Source of the DNA: Candidatus Aerophobota bacterium | Lineage (GTDB): Bacteria > Aerophobota > Aerophobia > Aerophobales > B3-G15 | Reading direction: 5' to 3' | Assembly (NCBI GenBank): GCA_014859225.1 | Contig: JACUUP010000015.1 | Span: 1-19,615 of the forward strand | DNA: 19,615 nt | Shown: positions 2,998-6,890 of the stretch, one piece after another | How positions within the stretch are numbered: the first letter of the stretch is position 1 | How the letters are laid out: each line of letters opens with the position of its first letter | Translations under genes and position numbers: made by a program | Notes under the pieces: generated by a model | The model's input: only the letters and a program-made list of their open reading frames with translations | What the model was told of the DNA's origin: nothing | The model's database searches: none

Positions 2998-3483
2998 TCA
3001 ACTTTTCATTTCCCTGGACAAAGCAACCTTTCCCGTCCTTACCAGTTTTTTTACACCAAGGGGCCTCAAAAGAGTTAAAAGGCCCTTTATTTTTTCCTCG
3101 TTACCTGTAACCTCCAGAGTTAGAGACTCCGGATGAACATCTACGATTCGGGCTCGAAAAATTTCCGCCAATCTCATTATCTCATCCCTATCTTTTCCTC
3201 TGGCATTAACCCTTACCAGGATAAGCTCTCTTGTAACAGTTGGCTGGCCTGTAAGGTCTACCACTTTTATTACATCAATTAATTTGCGAAGTTGCTTAAT
3301 CACCTGTTCAATAACCTGGTCATCCCCGGGCACAACCATGGTTATCCGGGAAATAGTAGAATCCTCAGTCTCACCCACGGCTAAAGAATCAATATTAAAT
3401 CCCCGGGCACTGAAAAGGGAAGCAATCCTTGCTAAAATCCCGAACCTGTTTTCTACTTCAACAGAAATAAGATGTTTCACCAT
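2998..3483 (-). CDS. ilvN: Acetolactate synthase small (regulatory) subunit
   Basis: This is the regulatory subunit of acetohydroxyacid synthase, which stimulates the catalytic subunit and senses valine or other branched-chain end products through its ACT domain. The N-terminal ACT domain is clear (about residues 1-75: HLISVEVENRFGILARIASL, then GFNIDSL and the VPGDD turn), followed by the C-terminal domain with TRELILVRV and the ending conserved in IlvN/IlvH proteins. Length, 161 residues, is typical. The start ATG at 3483 has AAGG five bases upstream. It follows ilvC after 63 bases. The large subunit ilvB, normally the immediate neighbour, is absent from the window. Confidence 0.95.
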   Translation of the reverse strand: MVKHLISVEVENRFGILARIASLFSARGFNIDSLAVGETEDSTISRITMVVPGDDQVIEQVIKQLRKLIDVIKVVDLTGQPTVTRELILVRVNARGKDRDEIMRLAEIFRARIVDVHPESLTLEVTGNEEKIKGLLTLLRPLGVKKLVRTGKVALSREMKS

Positions 3484-3546: not shown

Positions 3547-4539
3547 TTACCTTTTTATCCAAGACATCATCTCCCTTAACCTTGTACCCACTTTCTCAAC
3601 TAAATGCTCTTCATCTTTTTTCCTCAGAGCACTAAAAACGGGACGATTCACTTTATTTTCCAGAATCCACTCTCGGGCAAAATGCCCTAACCTTACCTCC
3701 TCTAAAATCTTTTTCATCTCCTCTTTAACCCGGGAATCTATTATCCTTGGTCCGCGTGTAAGGTCTCCATACTCTGCCGTATTGCTGATTGCCTTTCTCA
3801 TACCAGTTAGCCCCGCCTCATAAATTAAATCAACTATGAGTTTTAGCTCGTGCAGGCACTCAAAATAAGCCATCTCCGGCTGATATCCTGCCTCTACCAG
3901 AGTTTCAAACCCTGCTTTAATAAGAGAGCTAACCCCTCCACATAAAACCACCTGTTCTCCAAAAAGGTCGGTCTCTGTTTCCTCATCAAAACTTGTTTCT
4001 ATAACACCTGCTCTGGTACAACCTATACCTTTAGCGTAAGAAAGAGCCAGCTCTTTTGCCTTACCTGTTGCATCCTGATGCAATGCTACAAGTCCGGGAA
4101 CACCTTTCCCTTCCACATATAGACGGCGTAGAAGCGAGCCCGGACTTTTAGGAGCTATCATAAAAACATCAACATCTTTTGGGGGAATAATTTGATGAAA
4201 GGTGATATTAAATCCATGAGAAAAACCAAGGGCATTTCCCTTTTCAAGATATGGTTCTATCTCATCTTTATAAAGCTCAGCCTGATATTCATCGGGTATA
4301 AGTATTTGAATAACATCAGCCTTTTTTGCCACCTCAGCTGAGGCCATAACGTCAAATCCTGCCTCCTTAGCCTTATCCCAGCCCAAAGTTCCCTCAAGCT
4401 CGCCTACCAATACTTTAACGTGGCTATCCCTGAGATTAAGCGCCTGTGCGTGTCCCTGATTTCCATAGCCAATTATCCCCACAACCTTTTGTTTGATAAA
4501 ATCAATACTTGCATCTTTCTCATAGTATATGTTAGCCAC
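3547..4539 (-). CDS. ilvC: Ketol-acid reductoisomerase
   Basis: KARI converts acetolactate and acetohydroxybutyrate to dihydroxy acids in valine, leucine and isoleucine synthesis, using Mg2+ and a reduced nicotinamide cofactor. From the GTG at 4539 the protein is 330 residues, the usual class I length, and begins [10 protein letters not shown] as in the family. GYGNQG (24-29) is the nucleotide-binding loop. SHGF (His108), [10 protein letters not shown] (Asp191, Glu195), [10 protein letters not shown] and SNTAEYG supply the catalytic and metal-binding residues. The open frame extends to a GTG at 4569, but a perfect AGGAGGAG placed just upstream of 4539 and overlapping the ilvE stop favours the shorter form. 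The segment [10 protein letters not shown] (45-54) lacks the Arg and Ser residues that normally hold the NADPH 2'-phosphate, so cofactor preference is uncertain. [10 protein letters not shown] also departs from the common KGPGHxVRR. Confidence 0.97.
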
Positions 4540-4542
4540 TTT

Positions 4543-4550
4543 CTCCTCCT
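4543..4550 (-). promoter_or_regulatory. Ribosome binding site deciding the ilvC start
   Basis: On the minus strand AGGAGGAG is followed by AAA and the GTG at 4539, with the core GGAGG five bases from the start. The site begins within the ilvE stop codon (4552-4550), so ilvC is very likely translated by ribosomes finishing ilvE. No comparable site precedes the GTG at 4569. Confidence 0.85.
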
Positions 4551-5428
4551 CATTCATATATTGGCACACCTTCTTTTTCAGTTAGCTCTCTAAATTTTTT
4601 AATTAATATTTTCGTTACAGAACCTACCCGACCATCCCCGATAACTCTTCCATCTACTCTGGTTACAGGTATAATCTCAGCCGCAGTCCCGGTTAGAAAA
4701 CACTCATCACTCGTATAAACTGAAAAGAGGGTGAAGACTTTCTCCTCAAAATTTATATTCTCTTCCCTGGCAAGTTCAATAACCACATCTCTTGTTATCC
4801 CCTTAAGAATCCCCGCCCAGGCGGGGGGGGTAACCAGAACACCTCCTTCTACAATAAATAAATTGTCTCCGGTGCACTCAGCAACATAACCATGGTTATT
4901 TAACATAATAGCCTCAGAAACACCCTTTGCTGTTGCTTCCAATTTAGCAAGGATATTGTTTAAATAATTGAGAGATTTTATGCCCGGGTCAAGTGCTGAA
5001 AGACTATTCCTTCTTACCGAAGAGGTTATAACCTCAAGTCCCTCCTCGTAAAATTTTTCCGGATATATGCTTATTTTATCAGTTATTATTATCAGCTGAG
5101 AATAGGGACATTTCTCGGGGTCAAGACCAAGGTCCCCCTCTCCCCTTGAAACCACAACTCTTATATAGGCATCTTTAAGTTCATTTTTTCTCAAAACTTC
5201 TTTAATTTTTTCCCTTAACTCATGCGGGGAAAGCGGTATTTTTAATGAAATTGCTCTGGCTGATCTAAACAAACGCTGGATATGCTCATCCAGTCTGAAA
5301 ACCCTCCCCTTGTATGCTCTTATTCCTTCAAATACACCATCTCCATAAAGAAAACCATGGTCAAATATAGAAATTTTTGCTTCCTCCTGGGGGACGTATT
5401 CCCCGTTAAGGTAAACCCACCTTCCCAT
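4550..5428 (-). CDS. ilvE: Branched-chain amino acid aminotransferase (fold type IV)
   Basis: The enzyme is a PLP-dependent class IV aminotransferase of 292 residues. It shows [15 protein letters not shown] (about 23-37), the PLP lysine in [10 protein letters not shown] (Lys151), the AECTGDNLF segment (about 183-191, Glu184 conserved), and [15 protein letters not shown] (206-220). Fold type IV also contains D-amino acid aminotransferases and aminodeoxychorismate lyases. The [14 protein letters not shown] segment and the placement between lysS and ilvC favour the final transamination of valine, leucine and isoleucine. A strong GGAGG lies eight bases before the ATG. The stop overlaps the ilvC ribosome binding site. 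A run of eight C residues on the coding strand (4830-4823) lies inside the gene. Confidence 0.92.
4811..4830. repeat. Inverted repeat with an eight-G run inside ilvE
   Basis: CCCCGCC (4811-4817) and GGCGGGG (4820-4826) form a perfect seven-base-pair stem around a CA spacer, and G continues to 4830, giving eight G in a row at 4823-4830. The stretch codes for the short Thr-Pro-Pro-Ala-Trp-Ala-Gly linker of IlvE and keeps the frame open. It is far more GC-rich than its surroundings. Confidence 0.8.
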
Positions 5429-5444
5429 TAATATTCCTCCTTAT

Positions 5445-6890
5445 TTACTTTGATTTAAGCTGTGGGAACAAAATGACTTCCCTGATAGAGGTAGAATCTG
5501 TAAGCAGCATAACCAATCTATCTATCCCGATTCCAAGCCCCCCTGCAGGAGGCATTCCATACTCAAGGGACTCCAGAAAATCATAATCTATAAACCTTTC
5601 ATCGGCAAATTTTTCCAATCTTTGCTTTTGTTCCAGAGGGTCATTCAGTTCCGAGTAAGCATTGGCAAGTTCCCATCCGGCGATAAAAAGCTCAAATCTT
5701 TCCACTACTAAAGGGTCCTCTTTTTTCCTTTTAGCCAGTGGAGCTGTCTCGTAGGGATAATCGTATAGAATTGTTGGTTGAATTAGATATGGCACCACTT
5801 TCTTATCAATGAGATGTTCAAAAATCTGGGACCTTGTTAAATCCCTGGTATTAATTCCACACCCCTCAGCAATTTTTCGCAGTTCTTCATCGCTTATTTT
5901 TAGGTCAATATCAATTCCTCCTATCTGTTGTAAAGCCTCTTTAAAAGTAAACCTCTTCCAGGAAGAAGACATATCTATCCTGTTTCCATCATATTCAATT
6001 TTCAGCTTTCCCTTAACTTTTTCAGTTACATAAGAAATTAACTGCTCTGCAAGCTCCATTATATCAAAATAATTAGCATAAGCCTGATACGCTTCAAGCA
6101 TGGTAAATTCTGGATTGTGAAACCTGTCAATCCCTTCGTTTCTGAAATTTCTACTTAGCTCATAAACTTTTTCCAGTCCACCCACAACAAGCTTTTTAAG
6201 ATAAAGCTCAGGAGCAATTCTCAGATAAAAATTTTTACCCAGAGCGTTATGATAAGTTTCAAAGGGACGGGCAGTAGCGCCACCAGGTACAGGCTGCATT
6301 ATGGGTGTTTCAACTTCAACGAATCCCCTTTTATCTAAAAAATCCCTTATTATTTTTACTATCTTTGCCCTCACAAGAACAATGTCCCGCATCTTTGGAT
6401 TCACCAGAAGGTCTAACCAGCGCTTTCTATAGCGAAGCTCTGTATCCTGAAGACCATGCCATTTATCTGGAAGAGGATGTAGAGATTTTGCCAGGAGAGT
6501 AAAATAGGAAAGCTCCACAGTTAACTCTCCGGTTCTTGTTTTAAAGACCTCGCCCTCTGCTCCAATAATATCCCCTATATCAATTTTAGATAAAAGTCCA
6601 TAGCTTTTCGCCAATCTATCCACTCTACCGTAAAGCTGGATTTTTCCAGTTTCATCTTTTAAATCAAGAAAGGTAGCTTTCCCGTGGGTTCTCTGAGCAG
6701 TTATTCTTCCCGCTATACGCACATTCGCCCCGCTTCGCTCAGTTTTCTCAAGAGAGGAAAACTTTTTATGTAGACTCTCAACCTGGTTCTGAGGCGAGAA
6801 TTTTTCCCAGCAGGGATTTCCCTTCAAGTTAATCCAGCTGGACAGTTTCTCTTTTCTTTCCTGGATAAGTAGCTCCTCAGGTGAGGGCAT
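5445..6890 (-). CDS. lysS: Lysyl-tRNA synthetase, class II
   Basis: The 481-residue protein attaches lysine to tRNA-Lys. An N-terminal OB-fold anticodon-binding domain (about residues 57-150: VRIAGRITAQRTHGKATFLD) precedes the class II catalytic core. Motif 1 includes GFVEVETPIM with the following PGGATARPF; motif 2 is RNFRNEGIDRFHNPEFTMLE; motif 3 is GLGIGIDRLVMLL near the C-terminus. Class I LysRS signatures (HIGH, KMSKS) are absent. The ATG at 6890 has GAGG nine bases upstream. It is the first gene after a near-consensus promoter and is followed by ilvE after 16 bases, so it heads the operon reaching dprA. Confidence 0.97.
   Translation of the reverse strand: MPSPEELLIQERKEKLSSWINLKGNPCWEKFSPQNQVESLHKKFSSLEKTERSGANVRIAGRITAQRTHGKATFLDLKDETGKIQLYGRVDRLAKSYGLLSKIDIGDIIGAEGEVFKTRTGELTVELSYFTLLAKSLHPLPDKWHGLQDTELRYRKRWLDLLVNPKMRDIVLVRAKIVKIIRDFLDKRGFVEVETPIMQPVPGGATARPFETYHNALGKNFYLRIAPELYLKKLVVGGLEKVYELSRNFRNEGIDRFHNPEFTMLEAYQAYANYFDIMELAEQLISYVTEKVKGKLKIEYDGNRIDMSSSWKRFTFKEALQQIGGIDIDLKISDEELRKIAEGCGINTRDLTRSQIFEHLIDKKVVPYLIQPTILYDYPYETAPLAKRKKEDPLVVERFELFIAGWELANAYSELNDPLEQKQRLEKFADERFIDYDFLESLEYGMPPAGGLGIGIDRLVMLLTDSTSIREVILFPQLKSK

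Follow-up and report, generated by a model that had tools for sequence, protein, structure and literature searches.

The cofactor-selectivity loop of ketol-acid reductoisomerases (KARIs), located between beta2 and alphaB, corresponds to residues 47-53 in the published nomenclature (PMC8615647). In NADPH-type KARIs an Arg at loop position 2, often a Ser at position 5, and a Ser at position 7 hold the 2'-phosphate (PMC8615647, PMC5940873). All kinetic values given here come from the table as reprinted in PMC5940873 (Table 3), where loops of the NADPH type read LREGSSS, LRKGSNS or LRPGSRN. Natural KARIs with LR at positions 1 and 2 prefer NADPH, except for Sw-KARI, which carries LR in an acidic 12-residue loop and is bispecific, and KARIs with an LER loop are bispecific or NADPH-preferring (PMC5940873). 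The Ia, Ms, Hs and Sw KARIs, with acidic loops of other design, show NADH/NADPH ratios near 1 (PMC5940873). An acid at position 1 is found in only two KARIs of the table, Tp-KARI (loop DIPSSEN), which prefers NADH 74-fold, and Ua-KARI (loop ETEILGGNKNPS), which prefers NADH 152-fold, and none of the NADPH-preferring KARIs listed there has an acid at this position (PMC5940873). For Do-KARI (loop QLEGDAY) the table holds values for NADH only (PMC5940873).

The window analysed here, a stretch of 19,615 nucleotides from a Candidatus Aerophobota bacterium (contig JACUUP010000015.1), carries on the minus strand the gene ilvC (3547..4539), which encodes a class I KARI of 330 aa. The plus strand of the same span translates into stops only. 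The GTG start codon of ilvC (4539-4537) follows immediately on the stop codon TGA of the aminotransferase gene upstream and is preceded by the Shine-Dalgarno-like sequence AGGAGGAG (4543..4550, minus strand), with AGGAGG at 4550-4545, 5 nt before the GTG. The mechanical list of open reading frames contains a longer frame from the GTG at 4569, but this one overlaps the aminotransferase gene and is less likely; with AGGAGG ahead of it and a typical KARI N-terminus behind it, 4539 appears to be the better start.

Directly upstream of ilvC lies the gene of a branched-chain aminotransferase (BCAT; 4550..5428, minus strand; TIGR01122 344 bits, PRK08320 468 bits) and directly downstream ilvN, the small subunit of acetolactate synthase (2998..3483, minus strand; TIGR00119 208 bits). 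The lysyl-tRNA synthetase gene lysS (5445..6890, minus strand; TIGR00499 587 bits) heads the conserved block. BCAT and lysS are conserved neighbours of ilvC across the Aerophobota loci, the position of ilvN next to ilvC is kept in nearly all of them, and the whole order lysS-BCAT-ilvC-ilvN-ndk-DUF1015 is kept in most of the 12 Aerophobota loci with a class I KARI. In the window ilvN has no adjoining large subunit; the best match for ilvB, the catalytic acetolactate synthase subunit, is found elsewhere in the genome on a separate contig (C159). With BCAT and ilvN as neighbours and ilvB on another contig, the context fits a predicted role of the enzyme in branched-chain amino acid synthesis. A genome-wide search detected a single KARI, on which grounds a second KARI covering NADPH use was rejected.

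The assignment of the ilvC product to the family is clear. TIGR00465 scores 455 bits against a cut-off of 226, PRK05479 scores 539 bits, and Pfam KARI_N and KARI_C are both above cut-off. The length of 330 aa and the one KARI_C match, corresponding to a single C-terminal knot domain, are those of class I. All invariant columns of a 59-sequence alignment are kept, including H108, K131, D191, E195, E227, E231 and S252, so that the conserved catalytic and metal-binding residues are present and the protein should be an active enzyme. The AlphaFold2 model (mean pLDDT 95.8) superposes end to end on solved class I KARIs with Z up to 42.5, and for Ua-KARI (4XDY) 326 residues superpose at 1.1 A with Z 42.1. 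The KARI fold is therefore a confident prediction; since NADPH-type KARIs fit the model equally well, the superposition on 4XDY supports the fold and not the cofactor.

The selectivity loop (4381..4401, minus strand) reads ELEGTLG, that is E47, L48, E49, G50, T51, L52 and G53, with E47 encoded by 4399-4401. The first-pass annotation had read residues 45-54 correctly, including the loss of the Arg and Ser that contact NADPH: Leu48 and Gly53 stand where Arg2 and Ser7 usually bind the 2'-phosphate, so the Arg/Ser pair at positions 2 and 7 that marks the NADPH type is missing. Its further claim of a change from Ser/Lys to Thr/Leu is true as far as Ser5 is now Thr51, but Thr is a conservative replacement of Ser. 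In the same way, the Glu that it described as added is a real gain for Glu47 and not for Glu49, which is not diagnostic, as NADPH-type loops often have Glu in this place, too (LREG). Glu47 is the sole acid gained in the loop, which contains no basic residue. In the predicted model beta2 ends at residue 46, and Glu47 is the first residue after the strand. With the acidic Glu47 at a cofactor-contacting position and Leu48 instead of the usual Arg, the loop has the sequence signature of the NADH-preferring KARIs (Brinkmann-Chen group). When the loop was aligned with characterised KARIs, Ua-KARI (4XDY) aligned as VIGETEILGGNKNPSW, with its Glu in the column of Glu47.

The start of this loop is shared across the phylum. 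Named loci with the motif, among them those of the closest relatives, are metagenome bins of Candidatus Aerophobetes (L049 matches identically to L002, the nearest relative, and L046 to L003). All 12 class I KARIs found in Aerophobota have D/E at position 1 and L/V/I at position 2, and in all of them the start of the loop is conserved as [GSA][ED][LIV]. Among all columns, 47, 48 and 53, each within the loop, separate acidic-loop from other KARIs best, where the rank of column 47 follows by construction because this column defines the two classes. A sequencing or annotation slip is thus not the explanation, given the conservation in 12 of 12 proteins and the separation of the classes by these columns. 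At position 5 most acidic-loop KARIs carry S/T, and at position 7 N or G; the pattern [DE][LIVM]x[GSNDE][STCG]x[NG][WYF] covers 43 of 59, and DIPSSEN, the seven-residue loop of Tp-KARI, fits it as well.

Other KARIs were also seen. Three Aerophobota genomes from two genera of the same order as the source organism (G015, G010 and G009; 79-87% complete), in which no usual class I KARI was seen, encode a divergent KARI of only 32-36% identity (L098, L099 and L100, respectively), whose loop reads VIIGQSKDF or VIVGQSKKF and lacks the Arg of position 2. On sequence, this looks like an enzyme replacement within the phylum. Two genomes, G001, which belongs to the same family as the source organism, and G061, carry beside the main copy a second KARI of about 42% identity (L095 and L096, with the short loops VGSIKDISW and VGNIKDKAW); these are possibly paralogues with another role.

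Taken together, the ilvC product is probably an NADH-preferring, functional class I KARI that serves the biosynthesis of branched-chain amino acids. The preference is likely because Tp- and Ua-KARI, the characterised KARIs with an acid at position 1, prefer NADH, a rule that rests on few cases, as only two such enzymes have been characterised. In many NAD-specific Rossmann enzymes an acid at the end of beta2 binds the ribose hydroxyls and repels the 2'-phosphate. Here, Glu47 would accept hydrogen bonds from the 2'/3'-OH of the adenosine ribose and would repel the 2'-phosphate of NADPH, and the exchange of Arg for Leu48 and of Ser for Gly53 would remove the phosphate ligands. The candidate NADH use proposed in the first-pass annotation is thus the likely outcome, as the KARIs of the same architecture, Tp, Ua and Do, are NADH enzymes (PMC5940873, Table 3). 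An assayed KARI with exactly the loop ELEGTLG was not found in our literature search.

The distribution of such loops was surveyed in 150 class I KARIs outside Aerophobota, picked regardless of their loop from genomes across many bacterial families. D/E at position 1 was present in 47 of them (31%), Arg/Lys at position 2 without the acid in 77 and neither in 26; the survey over-represents uncultured lineages, and its second part also high-scoring KARIs, so these fractions are no census. The label 'rare', which had been attached to NADH-using KARIs with such loops, did not hold up in this sample and looks outdated. In a named genome collection, 7 of 30 pattern matches had no KARI match and were taken as chance. 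A third loop type, GLY(E/P/K/R)GSKS, was noticed in the loci L107, L109, L110, L114, L128, L146, L169 and others; it has Tyr for the Arg of position 2 and keeps the Ser at position 7, and the kinetics table of PMC5940873 contains no enzyme of this type.

In the subset of genomes with oxidase data, Aerophobota included, a heme-copper oxidase was absent from 39 of 48 genomes with an acidic loop versus 46 of 96 others (Fisher p ~1e-4). When loop type and heme-copper oxidase were compared over independent pairs on the tree, only five pairs were available, too few to decide, and the trend could not be separated from shared ancestry. The survey suggests that many little-studied bacterial lineages, most of them independent of oxygen, share the acidic pocket.

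The tree behind these comparisons was built without the loop columns, and Tp- and Do-KARI were left out. The acidic state is strongly clustered on it, with 14 changes versus a mean of about 59 after shuffling, and Aerophobota fall within a moderately supported group of 25 rows, all of them acidic. The well-supported branches force at least seven changes; a mixture-model tree, whose supported forks are few and which served only to set a lower limit, forces at least four. Therefore, the loop type has switched more than once. A clade of metagenome bins, mostly Actinomycetota (L031, L033, L037, L045, L047, L048, L054, L055, L057 and L059), has the near-identical loop GELEG(S/C)(K/R)(A/P)W but stands apart from Aerophobota on the tree, which suggests convergence of the two on the same loop.

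When the divergent KARIs were used as outgroup, most acidic rows came to lie near the root and most Arg-type rows were nested inside. NADH use would then be old; however, this root is not to be trusted as the outgroup branch is very long. The acidic loop may mark an NADH-type branch of class I KARIs that is both large and old and includes Aerophobota, instead of a repeated late switch from NADPH. The rooting, the strong clustering and the occurrence of the acidic loop in almost a third of a phylum-diverse sample speak for this, whereas the many weakly supported forks, some acidic lineages within Arg-type groups, the changes forced by well-supported branches, and the published view that NADPH use is ancestral (PMC8615647) speak against it, and on balance we lean slightly to the other side. 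More generally, it is possible, although we would not rely on it, that KARIs with the NADH-type loop [GSA][DE][LIV]x[GS][ST]xN, far from being rare exceptions, make up much of the bacterial class I diversity (about one third of the sample), are possibly ancient and are concentrated in lineages without heme-copper oxidases, and that NADPH may not be the ancestral cofactor of bacterial KARI. The reading of an old branch concerns origin and not function, and is compatible with a preference for NADH.

For the function itself, a bispecific enzyme that uses NADH and NADPH about equally is unlikely. Four natural acidic-loop KARIs, Ia, Ms, Hs and Sw, do behave in this way, and Thr51 might still act as a hydrogen-bond donor to the 2'-phosphate. 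However, three of these four retain an Arg in the loop (LERQGDS, LEREGKS and LRKPFDEASEKE), and position 1 is Leu in each of the four, whereas ELEGTLG has neither Arg nor Lys and shares its Glu at position 1 with the strongly NADH-selective Ua-KARI (Asp in Tp-KARI). That it is an ordinary NADPH-dependent KARI with an atypical loop, the 2'-phosphate being held by other residues, is very improbable: KARIs are mostly NADPH-dependent (PMC8615647), NADP(H) exists in a cell with an NAD kinase, and 26 of the 150 surveyed KARIs have neither the acid nor Arg/Lys, but here both usual phosphate ligands are lost from a loop without any basic residue, and the acid at position 1, with which no KARI in the published table prefers NADPH, is conserved phylum-wide.

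An NADH-preferring KARI had been linked in the first-pass annotation to a low-NADPH anaerobic metabolism. The NAD kinase in the genome rules out a cell without NADPH, and a search for NfnB/GltA gave matches only below the curated cut-off. Neither glucose-6-phosphate dehydrogenase nor a heme-copper oxidase had a match in the genome, which is 91% complete, so that both absences are weak evidence. A general shortage of NADPH is therefore a weak argument for NADH use. The anaerobic part agrees with the missing oxidase match and with the enrichment of acidic loops in such genomes, although that enrichment could not be separated from shared ancestry. Aerophobetes occur in deep-sea sediments and have been linked to acetogenesis via the Wood-Ljungdahl pathway (PMC6472368).

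The kind of enzyme described here is already known, and its distribution is the most interesting part. There is demand for NADH-dependent KARIs to make isobutanol and branched-chain amino acids anaerobically, a setting in which NADPH is limiting, and a phylum-wide conserved NADH-type loop provides a ready set of candidate enzymes. If the loop has the meaning that it has in Tp- and Ua-KARI, the synthesis of valine and isoleucine with NADH would be widespread and not rare. This would have consequences for the question of the original cofactor and for those metabolic models of uncultured bacteria in which NADPH is assumed.

Among the characterised enzymes, Tp-KARI from Thermacetogenium phaeum, compared by its loop alone, shares with the Aerophobota KARI the seven-residue loop, the acid at position 1, an aliphatic residue at position 2 and a hydroxyl at position 5; it differs by Asp for Glu at position 1 and Asn for Gly at position 7. 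Ua-KARI from an uncultured archaeon (4XDY) likewise has a Glu directly after beta2 (VIGE versus LVGE) and no Arg at position 2, but its loop has 12 residues with a final Ser, and overall identity is about 50%. Do-KARI from Desulfococcus oleovorans has the same Leu-Glu-Gly at positions 2-4, also without Arg, and differs at positions 1 (Gln), 5 (Asp) and 7 (Tyr). The NADPH-type KARIs of Slackia exigua (LREGSSS) and Methanothermococcus (LRPNGAS) resemble the Aerophobota KARI in fold, active site and loop length. However, their contacts to the 2'-phosphate are the Arg of position 2 and the Ser of position 7, in Slackia also a Ser at position 5, whereas the Aerophobota KARI has Leu48, Gly53 and Thr51 instead, and Glu47 in place of Leu.
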